Source: Alphaproteobacteria bacterium
Lineage (GTDB): Bacteria > Pseudomonadota > Alphaproteobacteria > UBA9655
Reading direction: 5' to 3'
DNA length: 36,712 nucleotides
Assembly: GCA_027459605.1 (NCBI GenBank)
Contig: DAIDHR010000020.1
Location: 1-36,712 of the forward strand
In this document: positions 2,483 through 31,743 of the stretch, one piece after another
How the letters are laid out: the number at the start of each line of letters is the position of its first letter
Position numbering within the stretch: position 1 is the first letter of the stretch
The notes under the pieces: model-generated
Databases searched by the model: none
Seen by the model: only the letters and a program-made list of their open reading frames with translations
Told to the model about the DNA's origin: nothing
Made by a program: the position numbers and the translations under genes

Positions 2483-2724
2483 AAGAATGTAATACGACTT
2501 TTTTGGTTAATTAAATGGTCTTTAGTTCCAGAGTCGTCTAACGAAAATTTACGGAAGAATTAAGATCCTTTTAACCTTTCCCTTTGTGGGGGACATAATT
2601 TATCCTATGCGCAAAATATAAGTTTGTCATTGCCAAAATGGCTGGAAATTTTCATAAGATGAGCCTGACTATAACTCCTTTCCTCTTGAACCTTTTTTTT
2701 ACCTCCGTTAGCTTCAACAAACGC

Positions 2725-2814
2725 GGAGGGATGCCAGAGCGGTCGAATGGGGCGGTCTCGAAAACCGTTGTGCGCGCAAGCGTACCGTGGGTTCGAATCC
2801 CACTCCCTCCGCCA
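2725..2814 (+). tRNA. tRNA-Ser (anticodon CGA), CCA encoded
   Basis: The acceptor stem GGAGGGA (2725-2731) pairs with TCCCTCC (2804-2810), followed by G and CCA. The anticodon stem-loop reads GCGGT-CTCGAAA-ACCGT, so the anticodon is CGA, decoding UCG. A long variable arm (GTGCGC...GCGTAC) is diagnostic of a class II tRNA-Ser, and the T arm is GTGGG-TTCGAAT-CCCAC. The gene is complete. Its 3' 60 bp recur at 31684-31743, and an integrase follows 300 bp downstream, so it is an integration site. Confidence 0.97.
2755..2814 (+). repeat. attL-like copy of the tRNA-Ser 3' end
   Basis: These 60 bp, from the anticodon stem to CCA, match 31684-31743 at 58 of 60 positions, with both differences in the variable arm. 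Similarity stops at once outside the block (GTTTCAGT versus TTTTAATA). With an integrase immediately downstream in each case, this is the usual signature of tRNA 3'-end attachment sites. Confidence 0.8.
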
Positions 2815-2862
2815 GTTTCAGTGGTTTTTAGATAAGAAATTTCCCTCTTTAAATTGCCATTT

Positions 2863-2985
2863 GGGACACTCACGGGACACTTGAGAATAACAAAAGACAT
2901 ATGATGAACGTCATTGATGATCCTCTATTCATTCCTTAATTGGAGGATTCCGTTGAACTTCTTTAAACTGTCCCTCGGTTGTCCC
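2863..2985. promoter_or_regulatory. GGGACA repeats, likely arm sites of integrase 1
   Basis: GGGACA lies at 2863-2868 and 2874-2879, and inverted TGTCCC at 2969-2974 and 2980-2985. Each pair is spaced exactly 11 bp. The same hexamer at 10-11 bp spacing occurs at 31551-31577, just inside the other tRNA-Ser 3' end. Helically phased repeats beside att cores are what arm-type sites of a tyrosine integrase look like. The assignment to integrase 1 is inference from position. Confidence 0.6.
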
Positions 2986-3113
2986 ATGTCAAAATAGAGA
3001 TCATATATTTTGGCCGACTTTCTATAAAAATATAAGGATATGGAACGGTTTGAGGCTCTGTTGCCATTGTTTATGTTTCGCTATAGACTTCTCTCATCAT
3101 TAAGGGATGGACG

Positions 3114-4193
3114 ATGGCAACGATTGAAACACGACGCACTGCTGATGGAACAACAGGGTACAGAGCGAAAGTTCGCCTGAAAGGATTTCCCTCCCAATCG
3201 GCTACCTTTGAGCGTAAGACAGATGCAAAGGAATGGGCAAAACAAACAGAGGCCAGCATACGAGAAGGCAGATACTTTAAAACTATAGAAGCTAAGAAAC
3301 ACACTGTTTCAGATTTTATTGACAGGTATCTTCGTGAGATTGAGAAGAAAAATCCTAAGCGTTATGTAGATGTCAAAAAGTTACTAAATTGGTGGAGAAA
3401 AGAAATTGGATCTTACCTTTTATCTGATCTCACCAGGGCTCTTATTGTGGAGCAACGCGATAAGCTTCTAACCTCTACAGGCAAGAAGATTTCAAAAGAG
3501 AATAAGAACGCATACCGCAGCCCTTCTACTGTCAATCGTTACATGGTGGCCTTAGGCCATGCTCTCGCTATAGCGACCAATGAGTGGGAATGGATTCATG
3601 AAAACCCCATGAGAAAGATTTCCAAATTATCGGAACCCCGAGGACGGGTACGTTTTCTTGATGATGATGAGCGGGAGCGACTTTTAGAAGCCTGTAAAGT
3701 CTCAACGAATCCCCAACTCCACACACTTGTAGTGCTGGCCCTCAGCACGGGAGCAAGGCATGGGGAACTCATCAACCTACGCTGGGGTGATGTTGATTTG
3801 CAGCGCCGTGTCATTACCTTGCATGATACAAAGAACAAGGAAAGACGCCTGTTGCCTCTCGCTCATTATGCTTTGCAGCTCATGGAAGAACACAACAAGA
3901 TGAGGAATATTGCGTCCGATTTGGTCTTCCCAGCGCCTTCAAAGCCGCAAAGACCTTGGGATAGCCGTTCGGCATGGGAAGCAGCCTTAAAACGAGCCAA
4001 TATCGACAATTTCCGCTTTCATGACCTTCGTCATAGTTGTGCCAGTTATCTGGCCATGAACGGTGCTTCTCTTGCCGAAATCGCTGAAGTTCTAGGGCAC
4101 AAAACGTTGCAGATGGTAAAACGCTATGCTCACCTGAGTGAAGCTCATACAGCCAAAGTGGTTCAACGTATGAATGAAAGGATCTTTGGGTGA
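3114..4193 (+). CDS. tyrosine recombinase / phage-type integrase (element 1)
   Basis: This 359-aa site-specific recombinase should catalyse integration and excision at the adjacent tRNA-Ser. The N-terminal ~60 residues (GTTGYRAKVRLKGFPSQSAT) resemble the arm-binding domain, about 65-165 is the SAM-like core-binding domain, and about 175-355 is catalytic. Catalytic residues are R215 (TGARHGEL), H303 and R306 (FHDLRH), H329 (LGHK) and the nucleophile Y338 (KRYAHLS). All are present, so the enzyme looks intact. The ATG at 3114 has AAGGGA at 3102-3107. Its stop overlaps the GTG of the next gene, so the two are translationally coupled. Confidence 0.95.
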   Translation: MATIETRRTADGTTGYRAKVRLKGFPSQSATFERKTDAKEWAKQTEASIREGRYFKTIEAKKHTVSDFIDRYLREIEKKNPKRYVDVKKLLNWWRKEIGSYLLSDLTRALIVEQRDKLLTSTGKKISKENKNAYRSPSTVNRYMVALGHALAIATNEWEWIHENPMRKISKLSEPRGRVRFLDDDERERLLEACKVSTNPQLHTLVVLALSTGARHGELINLRWGDVDLQRRVITLHDTKNKERRLLPLAHYALQLMEEHNKMRNIASDLVFPAPSKPQRPWDSRSAWEAALKRANIDNFRFHDLRHSCASYLAMNGASLAEIAEVLGHKTLQMVKRYAHLSEAHTAKVVQRMNERIFG

Positions 4194-5266
4194 ATAAGCC
4201 GTTTGCACAAAAGTTACATGAACAGGATGTTGAGTCTTGGAAAAGGTGGCTATGTGACCCGAGTCCCATAAGTGTTCTCCAAGGAGTGGATGATATACTC
4301 TCCCACAACAGTCCACCTTCTGTATTGAAGGAAATGCAAATAAGACACTTAGGAAGTAAGCTGAAGGAAAATATTCTTTTTGCAAGGCCCTCAATTAGAA
4401 ATGAAGATGGGTTTGAAAAACTAGAGGATATTATCAAAGTAGATAATATTGTCACCCTCCTATCAAATTTTAATACTCCTGGGATGTTGGGATCTACGAT
4501 TAAGTCTCGCCCCCAATTTTTAAAACTTATTTATCAATTCCTATCATATTTTCCCATTGCACTTCTCAAAGCCTACACAGAAATCACAGGAGAGAAATTA
4601 ATATTAGATGACCTTTCTGAAGTAAGAGAATTTTATGAAAGTTGCACTAAATTTGATTTATGGACTGGCCACGAGCTCTGCGCCTATCTCAGTCATTGTG
4701 ATCCAGAAGTTCTCGATTTCATATCAGAACATCCCGAAGCACAGGATTATATATCCGATGATTCCAAAAATCGAAATTTCAGGCTAGATAAACTAGAAAT
4801 ACTACTCCCTAAAAAATTCTCTCGTATCTTTCTGAGGCCAGATCTTTATGAGAAGAATTTGTCTCTCGTGAAAGCTGCTATTCTTGGAGGGGCTTTTGAG
4901 CTTATCCATGCTGATCGCGATAATTGGGCACAAAGCACCCTAAAGCCTCGGAAGGGATTGGAATGGGCAAGGCAGAAAGGGATTGATTATCACCCTGTGC
5001 TTAATGAGTATCTTCTTACTTTACATACAGAACCTGCGATTTCTTCCACGTATACCACTCCCTACCTCGAGATGATGCAAGAGGTGATAAGGGAGTTGGA
5101 AATTACGAGAAAAAATCAAAGCAAAAAAGAAGCCATAGCTGCCGTATTTGAAAGAAAACTAGCTGATCATAAGGAGACTCCTCCAAGCCAAAAATTAGCC
5201 GATGCAATGGCAACTTTAGTACGTCTTCCTGAATCGCAACAAGGACGAGCCAAATATAAGGGGTGA
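4190..5266 (+). CDS. hypothetical protein coupled to integrase 1
   Basis: I do not recognise this 358-aa protein. It is soluble and mostly charged helix, without a signal peptide or membrane span. The last 80 residues are rich in K, E and Q (MQEVIRELEITRKNQSKKEA) and probably form a long helix. The GTG start at 4190 overlaps the integrase stop (GTGA), and AAAGGA ends 7-8 nt upstream, so the two proteins are made together. Element 2 also has an unknown protein of nearly the same size (355 aa) directly after its integrase. I see no clear sequence similarity between them by eye. A role in recombination control or element maintenance is inference from position only. Confidence 0.8.
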   Translation: MNKPFAQKLHEQDVESWKRWLCDPSPISVLQGVDDILSHNSPPSVLKEMQIRHLGSKLKENILFARPSIRNEDGFEKLEDIIKVDNIVTLLSNFNTPGMLGSTIKSRPQFLKLIYQFLSYFPIALLKAYTEITGEKLILDDLSEVREFYESCTKFDLWTGHELCAYLSHCDPEVLDFISEHPEAQDYISDDSKNRNFRLDKLEILLPKKFSRIFLRPDLYEKNLSLVKAAILGGAFELIHADRDNWAQSTLKPRKGLEWARQKGIDYHPVLNEYLLTLHTEPAISSTYTTPYLEMMQEVIRELEITRKNQSKKEAIAAVFERKLADHKETPPSQKLADAMATLVRLPESQQGRAKYKG

Positions 5267-5318
5267 CCCCATCGGAAATCGCTTCTTCCTATCTTATTGA
5301 ATTTGTTTGTATTTATAT

Positions 5319-5341
5319 GGGGGAATGGGATTCTCCCTTTT
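5319..5341 (+). terminator. intrinsic terminator after the integrase 1 operon
   Basis: GGGGGAAT (5319-5326) pairs with ATTCTCCC (5330-5337) through one G-U pair across a GGG loop, followed by TTTT. It sits 53 bp after the stop of the 358-aa gene and before the next operon. A wider 9-bp inverted repeat, ATCGGAAAT at 5272-5280 and ATTTCCGAT at 5353-5361 followed by T7, encloses it and may form a second terminator. Confidence 0.5.
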
Positions 5342-5442
5342 GCCTTGACCCCATTTCCGATTTTTTTCTTCACAAAATTCACGTTTACTTCATGAGGAAG
5401 CGGCAATTGTGCTGCTTCTTATAACTCAAAGGAGTAAAAAGA

Positions 5443-5685
5443 ATGCAAATTCATAACCAACCTACACATCCCTCTATGCATAGAGACGTAGACGACTACA
5501 TCACCATCAGACAACTCACCACGAGTAACCCGGCGTTTACCGAAGGAGGGATTCGAGCCCTTATTTTCCGCGCTAACGATAACGGCTTTAATAGTTGTAT
5601 CCGTCGGATAGGGCGAAAGATCCTTATTTCTAAGAGTGCGTTTTCTCGTTGGATTGAAGCCCAAAATGAAGGAGGAAACTCATAA
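5443..5685 (+). CDS. small helix-turn-helix (excisionase/AlpA-like) DNA-binding protein
   Basis: This 80-aa protein has the outline of a small MerR/excisionase-type DNA-binding domain: YITIRQLTTSNPAFTEGG, a turn, then CIRRIGRKILISKSAFSRWI near the C-terminus. Such proteins lie between integrase and replication genes of integrative elements, where they direct excision or activate replication transcription. A frameshifted AlpA-like gene holds the equivalent place in element 2 (34314-34549). The ATG at 5443 has a strong AAAGGAG at 5428-5434. Its stop overlaps the next ATG (TAATG), beginning a chain of coupled genes that runs to 8249. The HTH call is from pattern only. Confidence 0.75.
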   Translation: MQIHNQPTHPSMHRDVDDYITIRQLTTSNPAFTEGGIRALIFRANDNGFNSCIRRIGRKILISKSAFSRWIEAQNEGGNS

Positions 5686-5849
5686 TGAACTGGAAAAAAG
5701 AAAAGCCCCTCCGTGGTGGGAAGGGGCTTATTAAGCTTTCGTATTTTATTTCTAACATTGTTAATCATACGGATCAACAGATTTGTCGTCCCATTTGTGG
5801 TCGTGCAAAAAGGCGTATCCGCAGTCGGTCTAAGGAGGTGTCTAAATGA
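5685..5849 (+). CDS. 54-aa basic small protein, coupled on both sides
   Basis: An open frame starts at ATG 5685, overlapping the upstream stop as TAATG with GGAGGA at 5671-5676 as ribosome site. It ends at TGA 5847-5849, overlapping the primase ATG. It encodes 54 residues, starting MNWKKEKPLRGGKGLIKLSY and ending in a strongly basic tail (RAKRRIRSRSKEVSK), with two cysteines in QICRPICGR. The perfect junctions argue that it is translated. I do not recognise it; a nucleic-acid-binding role is suggested only by charge. It could instead be mainly a translated leader carrying the hairpin at 5703-5729. Confidence 0.5.
   Translation: MNWKKEKPLRGGKGLIKLSYFISNIVNHTDQQICRPICGRAKRRIRSRSKEVSK
5703..5729 (+). 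promoter_or_regulatory. GC-rich hairpin within the 54-aa ORF
   Basis: AAGCCCCT (5703-5710) and AGGGGCTT (5722-5729) form an 8-bp perfect stem with an 11-nt loop. No clean T run follows, though the DNA just downstream is AT-rich. Lying inside a small coupled gene just before the primase, it could attenuate or pause transcription, or protect the mRNA. No function is shown. Confidence 0.45.
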
Positions 5850-6697
5850 TGATTCCTCCCATTGACTTGATCGCAAAACAGCTGGGCAAAGCAACCCGTA
5901 CCGGAAACGGTTGGTCATGTCTTTGTCCTGCTCATGATGATCATAAGCCCAGCCTCTCTTTATCCTTAAGCGAGGAAGGAGTCTTATTAGCGCATTGTTA
6001 TGCAGGGTGTTCTTTTCCTGACATTCTCTCTGCCTTACGCAGGAGAGGATTGCTAGAAAAGAATGATTCTCTCCAACAAAGAGACAGGCTCCCTATGGCG
6101 TCAAATGAAATGGCGTTAAGGATATGGCGGGAATCTGTTCGCGCAGAGGGCACCTACGTTGAGACATACTTGAGATCACGGGATATTCAAGGATCTATCC
6201 CCCCAACTCTTAGATTTCATCCGAGTCTTTTTCATACCTCCAGGACCTACCATCCGGCTATGGTGGCTGCCATTGCTGTATGGCCAAACAAAACCATTGC
6301 TGGTGTCCATAGAACATACCTCACGGCTGAGGGAACGGATAAAGCCACCCTATCGCCAAACAAGATGATGTTGGGATCTACAAAAGGGGGAGCCGTAAGG
6401 CTCTCCCCAATAGGGGCGAAACTGATTTTGGCAGAAGGCATCGAGACGGCGTTGAGTTGTTTTACTGCAACCAACATATCCACCTGGTCCTGCCTTTCTA
6501 GCTCAGGGATGATTGATATTGTGGTGCCTCCCTTGGAGATAACACAAGAAATCATCATCTGTGCTGATGGAGATGGTGCAGGGCAAAACGCCGCAAATAA
6601 ATTAGCAAAAAGACTGGATGGGGCTGGGTATATCGTACGGATTGCCCCATCCCCTCAAGGTCAAGATTTCAACGACATTTTAAGGGAACAACTATGA
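5846..6697 (+). CDS. Toprim-domain primase with CHC2-like zinc finger (element 1)
   Basis: This 283-aa protein probably makes RNA primers for replication of the element. Residues 25-55 form a zinc-binding primase motif: C25, C27 and H30 in CLCPAHDDHKPSLSL, then C51 and C55 in HCYAGC. Residues about 190-275 form the Toprim fold: LILAEGIETALS (catalytic Glu), then IIICADGDGAGQNAANKLA (DxD) and the closing DFNDIL. Length and order match primase-like proteins of alphaproteobacterial plasmids and phages. The ATG at 5846 has AAGGAGG at 5832-5838. The stop overlaps the helicase gene by ATGA. The N-terminal third of the element 2 fused protein is clearly homologous. Confidence 0.9.
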   Translation: MMIPPIDLIAKQLGKATRTGNGWSCLCPAHDDHKPSLSLSLSEEGVLLAHCYAGCSFPDILSALRRRGLLEKNDSLQQRDRLPMASNEMALRIWRESVRAEGTYVETYLRSRDIQGSIPPTLRFHPSLFHTSRTYHPAMVAAIAVWPNKTIAGVHRTYLTAEGTDKATLSPNKMMLGSTKGGAVRLSPIGAKLILAEGIETALSCFTATNISTWSCLSSSGMIDIVVPPLEITQEIIICADGDGAGQNAANKLAKRLDGAGYIVRIAPSPQGQDFNDILREQL

Positions 6698-7674
6698 GCG
6701 TGATCAATGTACAAGAGAGAATCCATCGAGCGGAGCCATATGTGGTCCCTAAAACGGAACAAACAAGGCCTCCTTTACGGGCCTTGAATGTGAGAGAACT
6801 CTTAGAATTAGAGATCCCTCCGCGTGAGATGATCCTCAATCCCATCCTTCCAGAACAGGGGCTTGTGATGCTCTACGCACCCCGTGGGGTTGGGAAGACC
6901 CATGTTGCCCTCTGGATGGCTTATACAATTGCTTGTGGGGACACGATGTTTGGCAATAAGTGGCAGTGTGAGAAACCCCGAAAGGTACTATTTGTAGATG
7001 GAGAAATGCCCTCTAGCACATTGCAGGAGAGACTCTCCAGTATCGTTGCTAGCTCAGAGAAAGAAATAGAAGATGTTGATAACTTAAAAATTATCACACC
7101 CGACTATCAAGAGTTAGGAATTCCTGATCTATGCACCTCTTCAGGCCAAGAATGGCTTGAACCTCATTTAAAGAATACCAATCTGCTGATTTTAGACAAC
7201 CTTTCATCCCTGTGCCGAAGCGGCAGAGAGAATGAATCGGAAAGCTGGAACCCCTTGCAGGGCTGGTTGTTGAAGCTGCGGAAAGCGGGCATATCCGTTC
7301 TTTTCGTTCACCACGCAGGCAAAGGAGGCAATCAGCGAGGGACATCTAAGAAAGAAGATATTTTGGATACAGTTATCGTTCTTCGTAAACCCAATGATTA
7401 TGATCAAAGAGAAGGCGCACGCTTTGAGGTTCATTATGAAAAGGCACGCGGTTTTTATGGAGAAGAGGCAAGACCCTTCGAAGCTCGATTACAGGAGGAA
7501 AATGGGAAAAGGACTTGGCAAGTCCAAGAAATAGAGGATCTTCAATTGAACAGAGTGATCAACCTTCATAAAGACGGTTTGAAACAAAGAGAGATAGCGC
7601 AAGAACTCGGGCTTGGTCTGGGCACGGTGAATCGTTGGGTCAAACGCGCCAAAGAGGAAGGTAAGGTCCAATGA
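6694..7674 (+). CDS. RepA-like RecA-fold replicative helicase (element 1)
   Basis: This 326-aa AAA/RecA-superfamily ATPase resembles RSF1010 RepA-type hexameric helicases. Walker A is APRGVGKTH (about 62-70), Walker B is LLILDNLSSL (about 165-174), and VLFVHHAGKGGNQRGTS follows as the sensor/H motif typical of the family. The C-terminal 40 residues carry a helix-turn-helix (KQREIAQELGLGLGTVNRWV), suggesting DNA recognition. It overlaps the primase upstream and the 192-aa gene downstream, each by ATGA. It would unwind DNA for the primase at an origin, for which the array at 7697-8491 is a candidate. That role is known for the family, not shown here. Confidence 0.88.
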   Translation: MSVINVQERIHRAEPYVVPKTEQTRPPLRALNVRELLELEIPPREMILNPILPEQGLVMLYAPRGVGKTHVALWMAYTIACGDTMFGNKWQCEKPRKVLFVDGEMPSSTLQERLSSIVASSEKEIEDVDNLKIITPDYQELGIPDLCTSSGQEWLEPHLKNTNLLILDNLSSLCRSGRENESESWNPLQGWLLKLRKAGISVLFVHHAGKGGNQRGTSKKEDILDTVIVLRKPNDYDQREGARFEVHYEKARGFYGEEARPFEARLQEENGKRTWQVQEIEDLQLNRVINLHKDGLKQREIAQELGLGLGTVNRWVKRAKEEGKVQ

Positions 7675-7915
7675 CATTTCCTTCTCACCAATCCTCTGTT
7701 CCACTGTTCCATTCCCTAGGGTGTGGAACAGTGGAACAAGACCAGAATTTACGGAACAACCCACGGAACAGAAACGGAACATGCTCTCTCAAAGCCTTAG
7801 CAAACAAGGTTTTGGAGCGAAACAAAGGGTGGAACAAACCTGGAACAGGGGAATCAGAACCTGTTCCACAACCTGATCAGCTTGTTCCATTGCATGGAAC
7901 AGAAAACAAAGAGAG
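7671..7915 (+). repeat. GGAACA array, copy 1 (direct repeat of 8258-8503)
   Basis: This is an approximately 240-bp unit starting at the ATG of the 192-aa frame. It holds 12 exact GGAACA or TGTTCC hexamers: 7697, 7705, 7725, 7733, 7753, 7765, 7776, 7831, 7842, 7862, 7883 and 7896. It includes an almost perfect palindrome at 7697-7738 centred on CCCTAGGG. The same order of hexamers and the block CTCTCAAAGCCTTAGCAAAC recur in copy 2. Confidence 0.9.
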
Positions 7916-8249
7916 AATATTTCCAGAAGAAAAGGAAACGAGCACTGACAACACTGACAAGTTCAAAATGGGCGCGAATATGTCAGTACTGTCAGTTCCC
8001 CCTGGAGATCCTGTTGATAAAGAGTATCTCCTTTATGACTACGAAGAACGCCTTGCCATCGCAGAATATGATGGCCAGCAAACACCTGCTCAAGCTGAGC
8101 GTATTGCCTATCAGGATGCTTTTATCAGTAGTTTAACGACGCTTCCTCAAGAATTTTATGAGAACTCTACTGGAGAAGATTGGTTAGATTCTCGAATCAT
8201 GGCGGCCAAAGATTGGCTCCAGGATCAAAACCTTTTTCAGCCGAAATAA
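7671..8249 (+). CDS. hypothetical protein; repeat-derived N-terminus, conserved-looking C-terminus
   Basis: This 192-aa frame overlaps the helicase stop by ATGA. The first ~80 residues are the translation of a GGAACA/palindrome repeat (VPLFHSLGCGTVEQ, then RNNPRNRNGTCSLKALANK) that is repeated downstream at 8258-8503. The last ~75 residues (YLLYDYEERLAIAEYDGQQ to WLQDQNLFQPK) are a different, acidic helical segment that looks like an ordinary protein domain. It may be that only the C-terminal part is ancient and the repeat was added at the 5' end. I do not recognise a family. A role in replication is inferred from the operon. Confidence 0.65.
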   Translation: MTFPSHQSSVPLFHSLGCGTVEQDQNLRNNPRNRNGTCSLKALANKVLERNKGWNKPGTGESEPVPQPDQLVPLHGTENKERIFPEEKETSTDNTDKFKMGANMSVLSVPPGDPVDKEYLLYDYEERLAIAEYDGQQTPAQAERIAYQDAFISSLTTLPQEFYENSTGEDWLDSRIMAAKDWLQDQNLFQPK

Positions 8250-8257
8250 ATGCATGA

Positions 8258-8503
8258 ATGACTTTTCCTACGACATTCAACCTTTGTGTTCCACTGTTCC
8301 ACTCCCTAGGGAGTGGAACAGTGGAACAAACCTTCAATCAGCGGAACAGCTCACGGAACAGAGGCGGAACATGTTCTCTCAAAGCCTTAGCAAACAAGAT
8401 GTTGGAGCGGAACAAAGGGTGGAACAACCTTGGAACAGCGGCATCAAAATCTGTTCCATCACTAACTGATAGTTCCATTGCTTGTGGAACAATAAACAAC
8501 TAG
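8258..8503 (+). CDS. 81-aa truncated paralogue of the preceding N-terminus
   Basis: The frame starts at ATG 8258 and aligns with the first ~80 residues of the 192-aa protein (VPLFHSLGSGTVEQ, GTCSLKALANKMLERNKGWN), then stops without the C-terminal domain. An alternative start in another frame (8254) exists. No good ribosome-binding site is seen. It may be a real small protein, or simply an open frame that follows from duplication of the GGAACA array. I lean to the second reading, because the palindrome gives the same peptide motif on both strands. Confidence 0.35.
   Translation: MTFPTTFNLCVPLFHSLGSGTVEQTFNQRNSSRNRGGTCSLKALANKMLERNKGWNNLGTAASKSVPSLTDSSIACGTINN
8258..8503 (+). repeat. GGAACA array, copy 2, with 42-bp perfect palindrome
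   Basis: Twelve exact GGAACA/TGTTCC hexamers start at 8287, 8295, 8315, 8323, 8343, 8355, 8366, 8409, 8421, 8432, 8452 and 8486. Positions 8287-8328 form a perfect palindrome with 21-bp arms and no loop, centred on CCCT/AGGG and beginning TGTTCCACTGTTCC. It is a direct repeat of 7671-7915, shifted 587 bp. It resembles iterons plus a cruciform or single-strand initiation site, next to primase and helicase genes. Confidence 0.9.
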
Positions 8504-8553
8504 GAAATTAACCCGGAAGTCTTGACGCATATTTTGCTTCCTGGTTCCCCATC

Positions 8554-10023
8554 TTACTCTCTTCGGAATAAATCATCCAGAGTCACTAACCCATCCACCA
8601 TATCTTCCGAGTAAATTGTTTTTTTAAGCCCATTGGCAGAGATAATGGCAAGGAAGATTTGTTTCTTAGTTCGTGTTCTTTCCTTAAATACAGCAATCTT
8701 GCGTTTTAAAAGGGTCGCTTCTTGTTTGTCTATAACGTAAGGTTGGTCTGTATACTTAATCTCACATATGGTGATGGCATCATCATCTCGATCAAATAAA
8801 AGATCAATCTGTGCCCCTTCCTTTTTCTCCCCATTTCTGGGGACATAGCGCCATGTATTTGGAACGGCTGTGGGGCTCATGTTAAGAGTTTGGCTGATTT
8901 GCGAAAGATGTTTGTAACACACAGCTTCAAAAGCATACCCTGCCCAACTATGCCAAGAAGCTGAGCTTTGCTGCTTCTGCCAATATCCGCTCATAGCCCC
9001 CTTTGTGAGTAATGTTGATTTTATGGGCTCAATCCAATCAAGGTAGAAAAGCGTATATTCATCAATAACTTGATAATAGATTCCTCGCTTAGTGTGAAAG
9101 TGCGACTTAAAGCTAATGATGAAGTTAGAATCTTGAAGATCCTTTAATTTTTTTAATCCCATTTTTCCATACTGAGATTTGCCCATATGTTTCAGGATTT
9201 CCTCTTGTCCTATCCCGTACCGGCGACTTGCGATGAATCGGACAATGTCGGCATAATCTCCGTGGTTCTCATAAAGAGAGGAGAATAAATTATCAAATTC
9301 CTCTGCTAAAAAGCTCTTACGTTGAAAGGCCAGTTTTTCAATATTTTGAGCAGCTGATAGCCCTCGTTCAACTTTTGAGAGATAATAGGGGATTCCCCCT
9401 GTCACCATATATATTTGGAGGACTTGTTCGTCGTTTAACTTAACGCCCAAAGAGGTTAAAAACCTTCTGGTATCTTTTAAATTAAAGGGCTCTAGATAGA
9501 TGTTCCGTGTGAGGCGGTTATAAAGTCCCCCCTTGTTATTTACAATTTTTTCGATGATCCATGAAGCGGATGATCCGCAAATAACAAGTTTAATTCTCTT
9601 ATCTCGAGACCAATGCTGGTTCCAATAATATTCAAGGGTTTGAAGAAGCTTGGAGTTTTTACTTGCCATCCAGGGGAATTCATCAAAGAAAAGAACTATT
9701 TTCTTAGCTTTGGGAACGGCCTTAAAAGCTTCTGTAAGTATCTCAAAAGTAGCATCCCAGTCTTTGGGTTCCTTTAGCTGGACGCCTTTATAAAACACTC
9801 TTCCTATTTCTTTTGTAAAATGGCGGATTTGTTCTGCTAAAAGCCCATCCTTAGCTCCCGTCGTATTAAAAAAAAGAACGTTCTGTTCCTCAAAGAAGCT
9901 TCGGATAAGAAAGGTCTTCCCCACCCTTCGTCGCCCATAAATAGCTAAAAATTCAGAAACCTTAGAAGAGAGCATTTGCTTTAAAATGGCTAATTCTTTT
10001 TTTCGACCTACGATGGACATCAT
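8554..10023 (-). CDS. AAA ATPase with C-terminal DUF234 nuclease-like domain
   Basis: This 489-aa protein belongs to the large archaeal/bacterial AAA ATPase-DUF234 family, whose function is not established. The N-terminal ATPase shows IVGRKKELAIL, Walker A YGRRRVGKTF, Walker B IVLFFDEFPWMA and a sensor CGSSASWI. A winged-helix region follows. The last ~120 residues hold a PD-(D/E)xK-like pattern (IDLLFDRDD, then ITICEIKYTDQP), the DUF234 hallmark. It is opposite in strand to its neighbours and between the array and the transfer genes, so it looks like an independently acquired cassette. The ATG at 10023 is followed by a second in-frame ATG at 10020. Confidence 0.9.
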   Translation of the reverse strand: MMSIVGRKKELAILKQMLSSKVSEFLAIYGRRRVGKTFLIRSFFEEQNVLFFNTTGAKDGLLAEQIRHFTKEIGRVFYKGVQLKEPKDWDATFEILTEAFKAVPKAKKIVLFFDEFPWMASKNSKLLQTLEYYWNQHWSRDKRIKLVICGSSASWIIEKIVNNKGGLYNRLTRNIYLEPFNLKDTRRFLTSLGVKLNDEQVLQIYMVTGGIPYYLSKVERGLSAAQNIEKLAFQRKSFLAEEFDNLFSSLYENHGDYADIVRFIASRRYGIGQEEILKHMGKSQYGKMGLKKLKDLQDSNFIISFKSHFHTKRGIYYQVIDEYTLFYLDWIEPIKSTLLTKGAMSGYWQKQQSSASWHSWAGYAFEAVCYKHLSQISQTLNMSPTAVPNTWRYVPRNGEKKEGAQIDLLFDRDDDAITICEIKYTDQPYVIDKQEATLLKRKIAVFKERTRTKKQIFLAIISANGLKKTIYSEDMVDGLVTLDDLFRRE

Positions 10024-10343
10024 AATCCCATATGTTGTTCTTCACTTTGGATTTATATTCCAAAGAGAAGGATAATGCAATAATTTTATCTTATTCTGCT
10101 TCTAAGAATATCATTTAAAAGAGAAGGAGAAGTCTTAAAAAACGAATATTGCCGTTGAAATTATTATGTTTTTAGTATCATAAGCGTTTAGAAAACAAAA
10201 ATGCATTCCATTTTTTATAATTCTTCTTGATTTCTTTTTTAATCCAATTTAATCTAAGAAAGCTATCTTATAATGAGATGGCGTGGAACAAGAGCACGGG
10301 AATGCTCTTGCCCCACTAATCATCATAACTGATTGGAGTTACA
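10024..10343. other. 320-bp AT-rich divergent spacer
   Basis: No gene is visible. The left part should hold the promoter of the AAA-DUF234 gene (minus strand). The right part holds a TATAAT at 10269-10274 and the hairpin at 10290-10309 ahead of the small-protein pair. Confidence 0.6.
10269..10309 (+). promoter_or_regulatory. TATAAT box and hairpin upstream of the small-protein pair
   Basis: TATAAT at 10269-10274 is a perfect -10, though no good -35 lies 16-18 bp upstream. It is followed by AAGAGCA (10290-10296) and TGCTCTT (10303-10309), a 7-bp hairpin in the 5' untranslated region, 34 bp before the ATG. GGAACA at 10285-10290 is a further copy of the array hexamer. Confidence 0.4.
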
Positions 10344-10532
10344 ATGACTGATATGAACTTAGTACAACTCGAGCGTTCAGCTCAACACCTAACTCGCCGA
10401 TTTAAACGTCTTGAAAATTTAATGGATGAAGCTTGGCTTGAACACGAGCTGATTCGCAGAGATCTCAGGGATATGTTTACAGCTTATTATGGCTGGCTAG
10501 GCAAGGAAGGGGTTGATCATGAACGACATTAA
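10344..10532 (+). CDS. 62-aa helical small protein
   Basis: The sequence is short, charged and almost entirely helical (LERSAQHLTRRFKRLENLMD then ELIRRDLRDMFTAYYGWLG), suggesting a coiled coil. I do not recognise a family. TTGGAG at 10334-10338 supports the ATG at 10344. The next small gene starts inside its 3' end in another frame, so the two are coupled. Position next to traC/traD suggests a transfer accessory or regulatory role, but nothing in the sequence proves it. Confidence 0.6.
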   Translation: MTDMNLVQLERSAQHLTRRFKRLENLMDEAWLEHELIRRDLRDMFTAYYGWLGKEGVDHERH

Positions 10533-10701
10533 TCCGCTTACTTACTCAAAGCATCTTTTAAAGCGTCTTGAAAGAGATGTCCGGGATGTTCATACCCAAA
10601 TGGGCCTGTTGGAACTTACTTTTAAGAATCTTCAGGGTTCTTGGCTCGCTATCAACTTGGCGCATAAGATTATAAAGGATGAAACAGCAGCAGAACGTTA
10701 G
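10519..10701 (+). CDS. 60-aa helical small protein
   Basis: This second small helical protein (SKHLLKRLERDVRDVHTQMG, LELTFKNLQGSWLAINLAHK) is similar in size and style to the one before and may be a distant duplicate. The ATG at 10519 is preferred over the upstream TTG at 10513 because AAGGAAGGGG (10503-10512) ends 6 nt before it. Function is unknown. Confidence 0.6.
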   Translation: MNDINPLTYSKHLLKRLERDVRDVHTQMGLLELTFKNLQGSWLAINLAHKIIKDETAAER

Positions 10702-10723
10702 TGAAATGGTCTGATGAAGGATG

Positions 10724-10750
10724 GTGGAAAGATCTTTCAGATTTTTCCAC
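10724..10750. terminator. possible bidirectional terminator between converging genes
   Basis: GTGGAAA (10724-10730) pairs with TTTCCAC (10744-10750) around a 13-nt loop. It lies between the end of the plus-strand small genes (10701) and the end of minus-strand traD (10760). T runs are short, so the call is weak. Confidence 0.35.
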
Positions 10751-10759
10751 TTTCTTTAT

Positions 10760-11107
10760 CTAAAGTGTTAGATTTTTCAATTTGCAAAGTTCTTCCAACC
10801 CTTGCTGCGTCCATAAGGGAAGGTGAGCTTCTCCACTTTCAACCATCTCATTCAAAACAAGCAGCCCCTTGTATAAAGCTGCTATTGGATCCCTCATTTC
10901 TGGATCTCGTTGAAGATCTTTTCCTAGGGTGATACCAAAAGTTTCGACTAATCCTGCGGTAGAAATGAGAGCTCCAAGCTGGATCATAGAGCGAGTCCTT
11001 GCCTTTTGATGCTTATGAGAAGTGAGTTCAAGGGTATCCATGAGTTTATACTTTTGTGCTTTAGTTCTGTTGAGGTATTGATTTAATCGGTGAAGTGTTC
11101 TTCCCAT
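10760..11107 (-). CDS. traD: TraD-like conjugal transfer protein
   Basis: This 115-aa protein has the short TraD signature of Ti-type transfer systems: a basic helix, then KARTRSMIQLGALISTAGLV, and a C-terminal helix predicted to pack on the relaxosome. It is unrelated to the F-plasmid TraD coupling ATPase. It follows traC on the minus strand and overlaps it by 47 nt from the ATG at 11107. An internal ATG at 11041 would avoid the overlap but lacks a better ribosome site. The traCD pair divergent from traA is the classic rhizobial/Ti plasmid arrangement. It probably assists the TraA relaxase at oriT. Confidence 0.6.
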   Translation of the reverse strand: MGRTLHRLNQYLNRTKAQKYKLMDTLELTSHKHQKARTRSMIQLGALISTAGLVETFGITLGKDLQRDPEMRDPIAALYKGLLVLNEMVESGEAHLPLWTQQGLEELCKLKNLTL

Positions 11108-11351
11108 TCTTATGAGGGGGTGATGGGCGAAAAGAATGACCGTGTTTTTTCCACTCCTCTTTGTGTATTTCAGAGGAGATTGTCTTCAGGTGGTCTAACA
11201 TTTCTAAGATCAACTGTAGAGAAAACTCCTTTCCAAAAATCCTTTCGGTTTCTTTTAAATAGGCAACAGCGATCTGCGTATAGAGCTTCTCTTTCCTCTT
11301 CTTGAGGAGTTGAATTCTTTGATCAAGTCGAGCCAGTTTATTATCAATCAT
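11061..11351 (-). CDS. traC: TraC-like conjugal transfer protein
   Basis: This 96-aa protein begins with a long coiled-coil-like helix (KLARLDQRIQLLKKRKEKLY), then AVAYLKETERIFGKEFSLQ, and ends in a Pro/Lys-rich tail. This fits TraC of Ti-type plasmids, a small relaxosome accessory protein. The assignment rests on size, helix pattern and the traC-traD//traA arrangement, not on a strict motif. The ATG at 11351 is preceded by AAGAAGA on the minus strand. The divergent spacer to traA contains the TACATA repeats and the oriT-like sequence. Confidence 0.55.
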   Translation of the reverse strand: MIDNKLARLDQRIQLLKKRKEKLYTQIAVAYLKETERIFGKEFSLQLILEMLDHLKTISSEIHKEEWKKHGHSFRPSPPHKNGKNTSPIKSIPQQN

Positions 11352-11427
11352 GAATATCTTCTTCTTTTACTAATGACTTAATCTATCAAATTTGTTATTA
11401 TAAATCAACATAATTTATTGATATTGT

Positions 11428-11463
11428 TACATAAAACTACATATGATTATGTATTTTTACATA
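11428..11463. promoter_or_regulatory. TACATA repeats with 10-bp period in the traC-traA spacer
   Basis: TACATA occurs at 11428-11433, 11438-11443 and 11458-11463, with the inverted TATGTA at 11448-11453. All four start exactly 10 bp apart, one helical turn, so a protein could bind one DNA face cooperatively. The middle pair forms a 16-bp inverted repeat. This is a likely operator for the divergent traCD and traA promoters, or a relaxosome-protein binding site. Confidence 0.55.
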
Positions 11464-11504
11464 TAAAACCCCTTCGTGAGTAACTGATAGGCCTGTCTTG
11501 ATAA

Positions 11505-11575
11505 GCTTTTTTAAAAGCGAAACAAGCGCGCTTATACATTCTGGCGAATGGCGCTGTGTCTCAGGCGACGCAGAC
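11505..11575. other. putative origin of transfer (oriT) with nic-like sequence
   Basis: On the minus strand 11537-11523 reads GTATAAGCGCGCTTG, close to the IncQ/Ti-type nic consensus TAAGTGCGCCCT cleaved by MobA/TraA relaxases. It contains the palindrome AAGCGCGCTT (11524-11533). Inverted GCTTTT/AAAAGC (11505-11518) lies beside it, and GC-rich DNA (11540-11575) follows. It sits 65 bp before traA, where Ti-type oriT sites are found. The exact nick is not determined. Confidence 0.5.
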
Positions 11576-11602
11576 CACTTTTGGAGGAGTTGAGTAGGCG
11601 CA

Positions 11603-14600
11603 GTGGCCCTCTATCATTTCAGTGCAAAAGTTCTCTCAAGAAGCAGCCGGAATACGGTGAGGGCTCTAGCCTATCGTGCTGGCTGTAAATTGTATGATGA
11701 ACGCACGGGCGAGAGCTTTAATTACCAGAACAAATCTGTTCAACATGTGGAATTGGTATTGCCAAAAGATGCTCCTGAGTGGGCTCATCATATTCAGAAA
11801 CTCATGGCTGAGGATCGGCGGCAGGGTGTGCAAGCTTTATCCGATATGGTTGAAGCTGCTGAGAAAAGAATGGATGCCCAAGTCTATCGAGAATTCGAAT
11901 TTGCGCTCCATCGGGAACTCACAGAAGAACAAAACACGGTTCTCGCTCGCGAGTTTGTGGAAGATCAAATTGCTTCTCGCGGTATGGCGGCTCAGTTGAA
12001 CTTTCACTTTGATGTGGACTCAGAAACAGGTGAAGAAAAACCCCACTGCCATGTAGTCACTCTTCTACGGCGGCTGGATGAACATGGGTTGAGTTCTAAG
12101 AAAGAAAGGGAATGGAACCGGAAAGAGTTCCTCTCTGAGTTACGGCGGCAGTGGCAGGATTATTCTAACTTCCACCTCAAGCTTCATGGCCATGATATTC
12201 AAATTGATCATCGCTCCAATATTGAACGGGGCATTGAGCTGGAGCCCCAGCCCAAATTAAGCCGAGGGGTAAGGGAACAGGAAAAGCGTCTTCAACAGCT
12301 TGAAGGAAGAGATGAGGCCCCCCTTACAGATCGGGCTCGGATCTTTCACGAGGCTCAATTGCGGAATCTCTATCGGGTTGTTAGGAATCCAGAGGTTATT
12401 TTTGATATTGTCACTAAACACCACGCCACCTTCATGTGGGCGGATGTACGACAAGTGCTACACCGCTATGCAGATGAAGTCCCCCTGTTTCAAAGGCTTG
12501 AAACTAAGCTTAAGAATTCCAATGAGCTCCTTCTCTTACGGTCTGATGAAAAGTCAGGAAATATCTACACAACCCATACCATGCTTAAAGCAGAGAAACA
12601 GCTTATTGAGACAGCAGAAAGCTTAAATCAGGTCAAATCCCATGGGGTTGAGGTTGTCCATATTGGACATTGTATTGAAAAAGCCAATCAAGCTTTAGAG
12701 GGCAAGGGAGGCCTTTCTGAGGACCAAATCAAAGCCATCCATCACCTTGTGGATGAGGGCCAGATTAAATGCGTGGTGGGTATTGCAGGTGCTGGCAAAA
12801 CAACGGCTCTAGGTGTGTGTCATGATATCTGGCAAGCAGAAGGGTATAATGTGTATGGGCTTGCTCCTACAGGAAAAGCAGCCCAAAATCTTGAACAGAG
12901 CGGGATCAATTCTAGCACCGTCCACAAGTTTCTAAAATCATTTGAGGAAGGGCGATGCCAATATAATGGTAAAAGTGTCCTTGTTTTGGATGAAGCGGGA
13001 ATGGTGGATGTGGAACGGTTTGGAAAGCTTTTAGGGGCTGTTCAACAGCTGGGTGTTAAGCTCATCGTTGTTGGGGATGGCGCTCAACTGCAACCTGTGG
13101 AAGCTGGCCCTGCGTTTCGACTTGTGACAGAAAGATTGGGAAAAATAGAACTAAATACGGTTATCCGTCAAAAAGAAGACTGGCAACGAGAAGCAACAGT
13201 CCTATTTGGTCAGCAGAAAACAGCTAAGGCAATTCAAACATATGGGGACAAAGGCTTTGTGCATATTGTTGAGGAGAAGCTTCCTTCATTAGAGGAGGCT
13301 TTGGCGAATAATGATAACGCAGCCCTGACACAGCTTTATCATATTTCTAAACGTGTCTCTTCTTTGATGTACAGAGAAATGATTAAGGATTGTCATCGTG
13401 AACACGGGGAATCAGGGGGAGTGTCTTATGATCTTATCAAACAACATCCTGACTTTGAAAAATACCAGGAATGGAAAGGCTTAGAAGAGAAAGCGAAAAC
13501 CTTTGTATCGGATATTCCTGAGGCTCAAAAAGCAGATGTGAGGCAAAAAACAAAGGAAACGCTCATTAAGGAATGGCATTCTTCCTATCTGCAATCTCCT
13601 GAGAAGAGCAGTCTTATACTGGCTTACAGCAACAGAGATATAAACGACCTGAATCGGTTGACTCGATCGATTCTTAAGGAATCAGGGCACCTTTCAAACA
13701 ACGATTTTATCTACACTGTTAAGAAAGTGGTTGAAGATGATTTTGGTAAGAATCACATCCTCCAAGAAGACCAACCCTTTTCGAAAGGTGACCGTATTGT
13801 CTTTACCCGCAACAACTATGGACTTGGGGTGAAGAATGGAACCATGGGAACCATCATTGACCTCAACAATCAAAAGGTTCAGGTTAAGTTGGATGAAGGA
13901 AATACAATCTCCTTTGCCTCTAAGCTCAATCCTCATTTTAACCAAGGATGGGCGATTACCATTCATAAATCTCAAGGAACGACGGTCGATCAAACGTATG
14001 TATTAGCCTCCTATGAAATGACCCAGAACTTAACTTATGTTGCCATGACTCGGCATAGAGAAGATGTGAAGATCTATGGCAGTTCCCTTGATTTCTGGAG
14101 ACCTGACAAACTTCCAGAAGTTCTTTCTAAATCAGGGGAAAAACTTGGCCCTGCGGATTATCTTGATGGGGACTCCCTGAAGAAGCTTATGGAACGCGAA
14201 GATAAAATCCTCACCAAAATATTTGAACGCGTCTCCAATGAATTGGAAGCTATGGGAGCCGTTGCAAAGAAAGCTTTCTGGCAAGTGGCTAATCATTTTC
14301 TAGACCGAACACAAGAAAAGGTAGCTCTGATAATCCAGTCAAGCGTTCGTGAAGAAGTACGCGCTGAGCAAATTTTACAGGAAAAACAACAAGCTCATAC
14401 ACCAACTGAACATTCAATCTCACCAAACCAAGAAAAGATTAGCCCAGCTCTCGAGGCCATCTATGAAGAAATGAAACATCCTGCCTATACTAATGCTACC
14501 ATTATGAAACGGGCCTTTGAAAAGGGTTTAAAGGCTTATGGAGAAGAACAAGCCATTGCTTATTGGGAAAGTAAAAAAGATGACTATATGAATGTCTATC

Positions 14601-15067
14601 AACAGAATTTGGGAAAGGTGGAGACTGAACTCAATTCGCCTGTCTTAAAGAATTTTTCACAGAAGTGGAAAACCCAAGCCTTTGAGTCAGCCAAAGACAA
14701 TCCCCTAAAAGCTCTAGATTTTCTCCATCAATTTAAGGAAAAGGAATTGGTACGCCAGGAAAAGGCCGTAGCTGCTGCCCAAGCAGAAGCACAAAAAGAG
14801 CATATTACAGACCTCTACCAGAAATATTGGACCACCCAAGAGATGATTAAGGATCACCCCTCAGTCCACGCTCTTTATCATGATTATCTCGAAGGTTTAG
14901 CCAAAGAAATTTATCTTGATAAATCTTTCATGAAAGCCCTCAAGATCTCGGATGCAAAAGATGCTCGGGATATTGAGTCTCTTGCCCGAGGAAAAGAATA
15001 CCAACAGTTGCAAGAACAAAAACACTTTCATTCATTGGACAGAGGAAGAGGTGGCCTCTCACTTTGA
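11603..15067 (+). CDS. traA: TraA-type conjugative relaxase-helicase
   Basis: This 1154-aa bifunctional protein nicks oriT and unwinds DNA for transfer. Residues 1-~220 are the MobA/MobL relaxase: the start LYHFSAKVLSRSSRN, candidate catalytic Y24 in AYRAG, and the metal-binding HxH in KPHCHVV (H148, H150). Residues ~365-830 are a RecD-like superfamily 1 helicase: Walker A GIAGAGKTT (K399), Walker B LDEAGMVD, VVGDGAQLQPVE, and the late motif ITIHKSQGTTVDQ near 780. The rest is a helical, charged tail. The GTG at 11603 is chosen because the family begins this way; GGAGGAG lies 13 nt upstream. It is divergent from traCD and intact. No mating-pore genes are present in the window. Confidence 0.95.
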   Translation: MALYHFSAKVLSRSSRNTVRALAYRAGCKLYDERTGESFNYQNKSVQHVELVLPKDAPEWAHHIQKLMAEDRRQGVQALSDMVEAAEKRMDAQVYREFEFALHRELTEEQNTVLAREFVEDQIASRGMAAQLNFHFDVDSETGEEKPHCHVVTLLRRLDEHGLSSKKEREWNRKEFLSELRRQWQDYSNFHLKLHGHDIQIDHRSNIERGIELEPQPKLSRGVREQEKRLQQLEGRDEAPLTDRARIFHEAQLRNLYRVVRNPEVIFDIVTKHHATFMWADVRQVLHRYADEVPLFQRLETKLKNSNELLLLRSDEKSGNIYTTHTMLKAEKQLIETAESLNQVKSHGVEVVHIGHCIEKANQALEGKGGLSEDQIKAIHHLVDEGQIKCVVGIAGAGKTTALGVCHDIWQAEGYNVYGLAPTGKAAQNLEQSGINSSTVHKFLKSFEEGRCQYNGKSVLVLDEAGMVDVERFGKLLGAVQQLGVKLIVVGDGAQLQPVEAGPAFRLVTERLGKIELNTVIRQKEDWQREATVLFGQQKTAKAIQTYGDKGFVHIVEEKLPSLEEALANNDNAALTQLYHISKRVSSLMYREMIKDCHREHGESGGVSYDLIKQHPDFEKYQEWKGLEEKAKTFVSDIPEAQKADVRQKTKETLIKEWHSSYLQSPEKSSLILAYSNRDINDLNRLTRSILKESGHLSNNDFIYTVKKVVEDDFGKNHILQEDQPFSKGDRIVFTRNNYGLGVKNGTMGTIIDLNNQKVQVKLDEGNTISFASKLNPHFNQGWAITIHKSQGTTVDQTYVLASYEMTQNLTYVAMTRHREDVKIYGSSLDFWRPDKLPEVLSKSGEKLGPADYLDGDSLKKLMEREDKILTKIFERVSNELEAMGAVAKKAFWQVANHFLDRTQEKVALIIQSSVREEVRAEQILQEKQQAHTPTEHSISPNQEKISPALEAIYEEMKHPAYTNATIMKRAFEKGLKAYGEEQAIAYWESKKDDYMNVYQQNLGKVETELNSPVLKNFSQKWKTQAFESAKDNPLKALDFLHQFKEKELVRQEKAVAAAQAEAQKEHITDLYQKYWTTQEMIKDHPSVHALYHDYLEGLAKEIYLDKSFMKALKISDAKDARDIESLARGKEYQQLQEQKHFHSLDRGRGGLSL

Positions 15068-15709
15068 TTTTTTCTTTTTGGGTTTGGGATGGTTGGAATT
15101 CTCTGGAGTTTTTTGAATTTCTACGGCTTTCTGTTCTAGTGATTGGGCTTCAAGTTCTCTCCTCAGTTCTAAAGTACGAGCGCCAGTTTCATAGGCTTCT
15201 CGTGTATACTCATTCATAAAAAACACAGAAACCGATGGGATTTGCAACAAGAATAGTAAGAGACCCATCCAAGCTCCTGCAAAACCTGCTGAAAGTGTAA
15301 GAGCAAAGAAAGGTCTACTCCATCTCAGAGCATATTGAGCTTCAATCTTCTGGCAAAATTCCTGTACTTTATTGATGGCAGTAGTGAGTTGGTTAACATC
15401 ACCCTCAGCTCGTTTCATAAGAGGAGACAGAATTTTTGATATATCAGCTTGGTAAGATTGAACTACCTTTTGAAAATGCTTATCCAGTTGATTTTGAATG
15501 TGCTTTTCAAGGCCATCTTTAATTTCCTTGGTGCAATGCGCTTCAATTGTGGAAATGCGATTCGCAACATCTGTCATATTTTTCTGGTGAAGCTGTTCTA
15601 GAGATTTCTTAAGGTCTGATTTGATGATGTCCAATGAAATCTCTTTCAAAGCTTCTTTCTCAAGACCTGAGAAATCTTGCAAATCCTTGGACTCTAAATT
15701 TAAATGCAT
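15059..15709 (-). CDS. coiled-coil membrane protein beside traA
   Basis: This protein of about 216 aa has a long helical region (LEKHIQNQLDKHFQKVVQSY, then NQLTTAINKVQEFCQKIEAQ). A hydrophobic span near residues 135-160 follows (FFALTLSAGFAGAWMGLLLF), then a charged tail ending KPKKKKSK. It converges with traA and their ends overlap by 9 bp. The ATG at 15709 is chosen because AAAGAGGAAC precedes it directly; an in-frame ATG at 15772 would add 21 residues. It could anchor the relaxosome to the membrane or be a transfer accessory protein, but I do not recognise a family. Confidence 0.7.
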   Translation of the reverse strand: MHLNLESKDLQDFSGLEKEALKEISLDIIKSDLKKSLEQLHQKNMTDVANRISTIEAHCTKEIKDGLEKHIQNQLDKHFQKVVQSYQADISKILSPLMKRAEGDVNQLTTAINKVQEFCQKIEAQYALRWSRPFFALTLSAGFAGAWMGLLLFLLQIPSVSVFFMNEYTREAYETGARTLELRRELEAQSLEQKAVEIQKTPENSNHPKPKKKKSK

Positions 15710-15932
15710 AAGTTCCTCTTTAATGAAGATATTTAAAATCATACTCTTATTTTTTCTTACATACAAAGGCATTAATGATGATTTGTAAGCTCCTAAAGGG
15801 GCATATAGCTCAATTGGGTTTTCCTCTGTCTAATTTTTTGTCACAAGATCATGGTTTACTTTTTAAAGCATCACGACCAATGTTATTAGGCGCTTTTGCC
15901 GTTGTTGCCTTTCAAAAAGGAATTTTATATTT

Positions 15933-16769
15933 ATGCCTGAGCTTCCTGAAGTTGAAGTTACCTGCCAAGCCTTAAAAGCTGTACTTGAAGGATTCTCAAT
16001 CACTGAGATCCAGCTTAATCGACCGGATTTGCGCTACCCGCTTCCCCCAAATCTTGAGAACGAGATTTGTTTATATTCTATTCAATCTGTGCAGAGGAGA
16101 GCAAAATATCTCTTAATTGATTTTGAACATGGCAAGACTCTTATCTGGCATTTGGGCATGTCAGGTCGTGTGATTGTCGAAACCCCTGAAATTCCTTTCT
16201 TGAAGGCAAGTCCTCATGATCATGTTATTTTTAGGACTTCAAATAATCACAAGATTACCTACCGCGACCCCCGACGTTTTGGGTTTATACAACTTACTCC
16301 AACAAGCCAATTAGCTAGCGTAAATCCTTTTAATACACTAGGACCTGAGCCACTCAATAACCCAGAATTAAATGTTTTGATATTTCATAATCGAATGAAA
16401 AAGCATACTAAGCCTATAAAAAACGCTCTTCTTGATCAAAAAATCATTGCAGGAATTGGCAACATTTACGCTTCTGAAGCCTTGTGGCAGGCTAGAATTT
16501 CCCCCTTACGGGCAGCAAATTCACTTACACAACCCGAATCCGCTCTTTTATTAAAAGAACTCCAAGATGTGTTAAAACGTGCCATTGCTGCTGGAGGATC
16601 GACATTACGTGATTACGTTCGCCCTAATGGAGAAGTCGGGTACTTTCAATATATCTTTAAAGTTTACGACCGAGAAAATAAGCTATGTGAACATTGTGAG
16701 GTTACAAATCTTAGCAAAATAATCCAGTGCGGAAGGGCGACATATTATTGCAAAATATGCCAAAAATAG
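15933..16769 (+). CDS. mutM: formamidopyrimidine-DNA glycosylase (Fpg/MutM)
   Basis: This 278-aa base-excision repair enzyme removes 8-oxoguanine and other oxidised purines and cleaves the abasic site. It begins MPELPEVEV, giving catalytic Pro and Glu after Met removal. It has the beta-hairpin Lys in RRAKYLLIDF and the helix-two-turn-helix segment KIIAGIGNIYASEALW. The C-terminal zinc finger is CEHC...CGRATYYCKIC with all four cysteines and the essential Arg. AAAAAGGAA at 15914-15922 precedes the ATG. Length and motifs are normal. It is the first gene after the transfer module, and it marks the change from mobile-element to housekeeping-like content. Confidence 0.96.
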   Translation: MPELPEVEVTCQALKAVLEGFSITEIQLNRPDLRYPLPPNLENEICLYSIQSVQRRAKYLLIDFEHGKTLIWHLGMSGRVIVETPEIPFLKASPHDHVIFRTSNNHKITYRDPRRFGFIQLTPTSQLASVNPFNTLGPEPLNNPELNVLIFHNRMKKHTKPIKNALLDQKIIAGIGNIYASEALWQARISPLRAANSLTQPESALLLKELQDVLKRAIAAGGSTLRDYVRPNGEVGYFQYIFKVYDRENKLCEHCEVTNLSKIIQCGRATYYCKICQK

Positions 16770-18226: not shown

Positions 18227-18243
18227 ATATATGGAAATCTAGT

Positions 18244-29525: not shown

Positions 29526-29534
29526 AATATCACC

Positions 29535-31683: not shown

Positions 31684-31743
31684 GTCTCGAAAACCGTTGT
31701 GCGTGTAAGCGTACCGTGGGTTCGAATCCCACTCCCTCCGCCA
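31684..31743 (+). repeat. tRNA-Ser 3' fragment (attR of element 1 / attL of element 2)
   Basis: These 60 bp match 2755-2814 at 58 positions, ending in CCA. The 5' half of the tRNA is missing, so this is not a functional tRNA gene. A P4-type integrase starts 167 bp downstream. Just after it, TTTGATGACGTTCATCAAA (31752-31770) is an inverted repeat with 8-bp arms; 13 bp of it recur inverted at 2901-2913 beside attL. Confidence 0.85.

Follow-up and report, generated by a model that had tools for sequence, protein, structure and literature searches.

The two arrays of six-letter words (GGAACA or its complement, TGTTCC) behind a putative replicative helicase gene in a 36,712-nt stretch of alphaproteobacterial DNA (the window) are best read as the duplicated origin, or iteron region, of an integrative mobilizable element (IME), with the words recognized by a helix-turn-helix (HTH) domain of the helicase itself (probability roughly three in four, judged from comparative sequence analysis). 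Recognition of the array by the helicase's own HTH is highly probable, given the covariation described below, and use of the array as the element's replication origin is probable by analogy with characterized systems. Feature coordinates are given in Table 1.

Table 1. Features of the window, with strand and basis of assignment
Feature	Position	Strand	Basis or comment
tRNA-Ser(CGA), attachment site	2725..2814	+	Last 37 bp (2778-2814) repeated at 31707-31743
Tyrosine integrase beside tRNA-Ser	3114..4193	+	Pfam
Small protein of 80 aa, putatively DNA binding (called AlpA-like in the initial annotation)	5443..5685	+	ORF
Toprim primase (DUF7146 + Toprim_3)	5846..6697	+	Pfam; phrog_510 DNA primase
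RSF1010-RepA-like helicase, 326 aa	6694..7674	+	Pfam AAA_25, RecA fold; predicted reader and loader
C-terminal HTH of helicase, residues 280-321	7531..7656	+	AlphaFold; HTH_23 match
192-aa accessory ORF with SLKALANKVLERN segment	7671..8249	+	Segment coded in the gap between direct-repeat groups
Array 1	7697..7901	+	12 GGAACA/TGTTCC words, headed by near-perfect palindrome 7697-7738
81-aa ORF, a truncated copy of the first part of the 192-aa ORF, carrying array 2	8258..8503	+	
Array 2	8287..8491	+	12 words, headed by perfect 42-bp palindrome 8287-8328 around CCCTAGGG
MobA/MobL relaxase-helicase (TraA_Ti), mobilization gene	11603..15067	+	Pfam
Far attachment repeat, exact 37-bp copy of tRNA-Ser 3' end	31707..31743	+	

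The arrays and their host element

The duplicated arrays reported in the initial annotation were recovered, with 12 exact hexamers in each and head palindromes that were 90% complementary (7697-7738) and 100% complementary with 21-nt arms (8287-8328). The underlying direct repeats (7697-7868 and 8287-8458) matched at 86% over 172 nt with a spacing of 590, and no direct repeats besides the arrays were found in 2600-17000. The order of hexamers, which had been described as identical, was common to both arrays at 11 sites, but each array was without one different site: array 1 had GAAACA at 7819, and array 2 had AGTTCC in place of a counterpart to the site at 7883. Array 1 sits within the 5' part of the 192-aa ORF, where its hexamers were distributed 4/4/4 over the three reading frames and in both orientations. 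Within the window, 39 GGAACA/TGTTCC sites were observed compared to 18.7 expected (0/100 shuffles), and 24 of these 39 fell in 0.8 kb (7697-8491).

The integrase (3114-4193) lies at a tRNA gene and the element is bounded by direct repeats (2778-2814, identical to 31707-31743), consistent with an IME; a MobA/MobL-TraA relaxase was present among the part of the ORFs between the repeats that was scanned for transfer genes. A related element with both arrays was found in the same genome, on contig C14 at tRNA-Ser(TGA), its arrays being separated by an inserted gene. The paired motif GGAACA-N5/6-GGAACA occurred 18 times in the 1.9-Mb genome and 15 of these occurrences were in the arrays of the two elements, so that the word is not equally dense across the host genome, a check that had been proposed with the initial annotation. 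The gene inserted in the C14 element (L009:9004-9546) codes for 180 aa on the opposite strand, and a remnant of the end of the 192-aa gene precedes array 2 there.

A second integrase (31910-33100) and a fused Toprim-AAA_25 protein (34546-36666) were observed directly behind the far 37-bp repeat. Since the far tRNA repeat is followed by this second integrase, two elements are probably stacked in tandem at one tRNA-Ser gene. Between the attachment repeats, 15933-31199 carries chromosomal-looking genes (names read from translations only), including formamidopyrimidine-DNA glycosylase-like and photolyase-like genes, a vWA/MoxR/BatD-like run, and a small heat-shock protein, which could be element cargo or a sign of a more complex history.

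The primase ORF overlaps the downstream helicase ORF by 4 nt, and no words were found just upstream of this operon. Compared to structures in the PDB, the helicase was most similar to RSF1010 RepA (1g8y) by sequence profile (E = 5.5e-9) and by fold (Foldseek, E = 5.4e-12), and the AlphaFold model (pLDDT 89.5) aligned to 1g8y over 228 residues (VIA Z 22.4, rmsd 2.8, 20% identity). RSF1010 RepA is thus the nearest solved relative of this helicase. The modeled C-terminal HTH consists of helices at residues 280-293, 298-305, and 309-321, with the recognition helix encoded at 7618-7656 and the key residue G308 encoded at 7615-7617. The 80-aa protein (5443-5685) had no match in Pfam, PHROG, or NCBIfam.

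Arrays and words among helicase relatives

Helicase searches yielded 16 genome loci, then loci in viral contigs and further genomes; many of the resulting loci come from metagenome bins or viral contigs. An array directly downstream of the helicase was found in 50/92 nonredundant relatives at 0/300 dinucleotide shuffles, and in 59/92 at P ≤ 0.02, with a commonest maximum of 3 to 4 copies in the shuffled controls. About a third of the 92 relatives were without a significant array (P > 0.02), some of them retaining the palindrome only. The proposed tie between an origin-like array and a primase/helicase module was borne out by this position directly behind the helicase in most relatives, and sequence comparison shows the array to belong to the helicase. 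Related elements that share the helicase yet lack any array had been named as grounds for refutation, which the close relatives do not provide: at helicase identity ≥60%, five of six had the full array and the sixth retained the palindrome.

Close relatives carried GGAACA directly behind the helicase, and distant relatives carried a different word in the same place. The words found included GGAACA, GAAACA, GCAAC(A), GGGACA, GCGACA, GGTCCA, GGAAAC (as in locus L050), GTAAAC, GAATCA, and others, with all sites within an array changing word together. A palindromic head was present in 38 of 41 analyzed arrays, across eight different words. In the layout common to these dialects, the head comprises two inverted word pairs and is followed by direct repeats 11 to 12 bp apart; triplets at 10 to 13 bp were found in 26 analyzed arrays, and the commonest same-strand spacings were 11, 8, 12, and 7. 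The center of the head contained CTA or TAG in 32/38 cases, including the full CTAG in 18. Comparison of the arrays shows that this layout, a head of four words in palindromic arrangement and then direct repeats spaced by roughly one turn of the helix, is largely constant while the word switches. In an alignment of eight arrays, words and spacing were constant and most spacers had diverged; the SLKALANKVLERN-coding stretch that separates the two direct-repeat groups was also conserved.

A search of 398 genomes with the palindromic word pattern alone recovered G642:C35:4118-4159, in a genome new to the set, and the helicase search matched the adjoining 4223-5089. Searches for exact palindromes were too strict for prevalence counts. 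Plasmid and phage collections yielded weak relatives only, with no annotated free replicon carrying the module. At locus L017 (6909-7630), the accessory gene contained no words and was followed by two GAAACA arrays, indicating that the accessory gene and the array are separable and that array duplication also occurs outside GGAACA elements.

A peptide of the form SLKALAxKVLxRN is coded at 7790-7825, and a matching stretch was observed in many loci (e.g., L019, L020, and L174). Within 260 bp of the end of the helicase gene, it was coded in 19/114 loci, in several dialects, and in 0/114 controls, and it may be a small protein that partners the helicase.

Covariation of the word with the helicase HTH

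Among 264 columns of the helicase alignment, G308, at the start of the recognition helix, was the best predictor of the word, and HTH positions 298, 299, 309, 310, and 315 were also among the ten most strongly covarying columns. Four loci with doubtful words (L066, L140, L147, and L122) were excluded from tests after the column scan. GC-type words were associated with N, H, or D at the helix start (13/14, versus 1/28 for other words), GAAACA with S or T followed by L, P, A, or R (9/9 versus 1/33), and GGGACA with [SG][KR]S (10/11 versus 2/31), in groups chosen after the data had been seen and by rules derived from the same loci as their Fisher tests. When similar cores were excluded, the word was correctly predicted in 26/35 cases from the nine-residue helix stretch, compared to 8/35 from the core and 13/35 from the linker. 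The association between helix and word persisted when core and G+C content were controlled for (partial r = 0.345, P = 0.0005), and counts of independent pairs were nearly all in the same direction, being too few for significance alone.

A new set of seven gammaproteobacterial loci encoding full-length helicases had a repeated word behind the helicase in every case; the residue rule written beforehand was right for three of them, wrong for two, and silent for two, and prediction from the nearest helix was right in 4/6. A tree of 42 helicase cores, constructed with the HTH left out, required at least 18 word changes. At one fused locus, L016, the core and primase were closest to those of L017 (GAAACA), the helix was closest to that of L010 (GGAACA), and the array was GGAACA. 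Collectively, these comparisons show that the word changes with the recognition helix in the C-terminal HTH of the helicase, and does so more closely than with the core, the linker, or (in few cases) the primase. The primase was considered as a reader and rejected, as it predicted the word less well than the helix did (11 loci).

One helicase, L078 (same genus, G755), contained two tandem HTHs, of which one (SLATINRRL) resembles the HTH of L015 (GAAACA) and the other (GLGTINRKL) resembles that of L016 (GGAACA). Its array is reduced to a palindrome (2547-2604) in which GAAACA lies inside and GGAACA outside with symmetric spacing, reading TGTTCCA-TGTTTCA-GTTTCA ... TGAAAC-TGAAACA-TGGAACA. On the core tree L078 fell between L016 and L015/L017, on starred branches. 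It can be read as a word switch caught midway, and it is a single case; no further helicases with two HTHs were found in the viral-contig search. A switch would then begin with duplication of the HTH and divergence of one copy, pass through a bilingual stage, and end with loss of the old HTH and the old word.

In the proposed mechanism, helicase subunits would bind the words as double-stranded DNA through the C-terminal HTH and gather on the array as a hexamer, with no separate RepC or loader. The helicase would open and enter the DNA at the array, the Toprim primase would begin synthesis, and the host polymerase would replicate the excised circle. A wider proposal, as likely as not to be correct, is that these proteins are members of a widespread helicase family of RecA fold (RepA/DnaB-like) that load themselves, each with its own origin-reading HTH, and whose origins keep a fixed layout and switch their six-letter word freely. 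The pairs of helix and word would constitute a readable recognition code, and switching would proceed through bilingual two-HTH helicases and two-word origins. For an initiator and its origin to acquire a new specificity, both must change jointly, a difficult step where a dozen dispersed sites have to mutate together. With 18 or more word changes on the core tree, a short helix that predicts the word, and one protein/origin pair containing both words, the evolution of origin specificity becomes directly testable, and the elements supply replicon parts that are naturally distinct from one another.

Proposed origin function, alternatives, and known replication systems

Origin function is predicted from the linkage of the array to helicase and primase and from the precedent of the Rep proteins of SaPI elements. 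In SaPI Rep, it is the C-terminal domain that recognizes short iterons lying immediately past the rep gene (PMC7581432). SaPI Rep and the SCCmec proteins Cch and Cch2 resemble the present system in being island-encoded initiator helicases with a C-terminal origin-binding domain, a set of short repeats that immediately follows the helicase gene, and a primase in the same region (PMC7581432), and they are its closest functional counterparts, with unrelated helicases. In the present family, the short repeats that form the predicted origin likewise follow the helicase gene immediately (50/92 relatives at 0/300 shuffles), and their reading by a C-terminal domain is suggested by covariation and L078. 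SaPI-type helicases are of the DUF927 or D5 (Primase_Cterm) type, whereas this one is an AAA_25, RecA-fold protein of the RSF1010 RepA type with a small HTH, and the Cch2 site has three iterons, compared to about 10 to 13 words, a palindromic head, and often two arrays here.

Covariation identifies the reader of the word and not its purpose, and the arrays overlap the accessory ORF; the helicase HTH might therefore read them for regulation, copy control, or partition (as an operator or centromere) instead of initiation. This is unlikely, as the HTH reader is part of a replicative-type helicase encoded alongside a primase, words are lacking just upstream of the operon, and in SaPI Rep and Cch2 the same layout of downstream repeats is the origin (putative for Cch2) (PMC7581432).

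The initial annotation had drawn a parallel to RSF1010, in which the array could be an RSF1010-like origin or hairpin single-strand primase start sites, with a separate small protein (the AlpA-like, 54-aa, or 192-aa protein) as the candidate binder. The parallel held for the helicase, best matched to 1g8y by sequence and fold, and failed for the primase family and word length. Both systems have a RepA helicase fold (hexameric by prediction here), a separate primase, and a mobilizable element. The RSF1010 primase is RepB', whereas the primase here is of the Toprim/DnaG type (DUF7146 + Toprim_3); IncQ iterons are long direct iterons, and the words here are hexamers. RSF1010 has a separate RepC, and the HTH here is on the helicase, which would account for the absence of a RepC-like iteron binder among the module's main proteins as scanned with Pfam (the small ORFs had no family match). 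A RepA-like helicase and perfect or nearly perfect palindromes would suit hairpin start sites and a separate binder; however, the palindromes could equally be double-strand binding sites, because two inverted pairs of the same word are kept across dialects. Moreover, the word varies with the recognition helix of the helicase itself and is predicted less well by the primase (11 loci), L078 pairs two HTHs with two words, and the accessory gene of L017 is free of words. A separate binder is thus quite improbable, and the initial annotation appears, by analogy, to have been right about the origin and wrong about the likely reader, the evidence favoring the HTH fused to the C terminus of the helicase.

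Protein-coding repeats (VP/GT/RN/EQ), or a selfish palindrome spreading inside a gene, would explain why array 1 lies within an ORF and why the duplicate carrying array 2 includes the ORF start, but this very improbable reading is disfavored by the equal spread of words over three frames and the word-free accessory gene of L017, as well as by the retention of words and spacing where spacers diverge and by the occurrence of words in both orientations. The alphaproteobacterial LexA box is GTTC-N7-GTTC, and the least probable reading, sites for a host regulator of this kind, fits part of the GGAACA-array spacing (GAAC-N7-GAAC, spacing 11) but is disfavored by the frequent spacings of 12 and 8, by relatives with the same spacing of words that are not LexA boxes (GAAAC, GCAAC, GGGAC, GCGAC, and GTAAAC), and by the concentration of paired words in the arrays of the elements.

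Reading of the arrays as helicase-bound origins also invites comparison with the PLE satellites of Vibrio, in which the DNA-binding domain of RepA and the origin iterons covary and switch repeatedly, and in which the origin-directed Odn nuclease of phage ICP1 gives a selective reason for switching (PMC8263062). Covariation of initiator and origin, with its likely cause, is already known (PLE RepA and Odn; PMC8263062). The PLE initiator is a RepA_N protein and not a helicase, and it switches by module swapping, whereas the words here apparently change in place. Likely causes of switching to examine here are incompatibility between elements or nucleases directed at origin repeats, as in PLE/ICP1 (PMC8263062). 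In the literature searched, which covered few subscription papers, no description was found of this helicase family with its repeats, nor of a fixed layout with changing words and a bilingual intermediate. Lambdoid phage O/ori is similar in that the initiator binds iterons located inside a coding gene (PMC7466680); unlike the initiator proposed here, O is not a helicase, and the gene that holds its iterons is its own.

P4 alpha and ORF904 of pRN1 likewise combine primase, helicase, and DNA-binding domain, but they comprise an archaeo-eukaryotic primase and an SF3 helicase (PMC4234260), neither of which is found here, where the module pairs a Toprim primase with a RecA fold. Fused relatives (L015-L018, L053, L078, and L109) have a P4-alpha-like plan built from these other folds. 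Primase and helicase were observed as a single fused protein of ~620 to 670 aa with the HTH at its end in L015, L016, L017, L018, L032, L053, L078, and L109.
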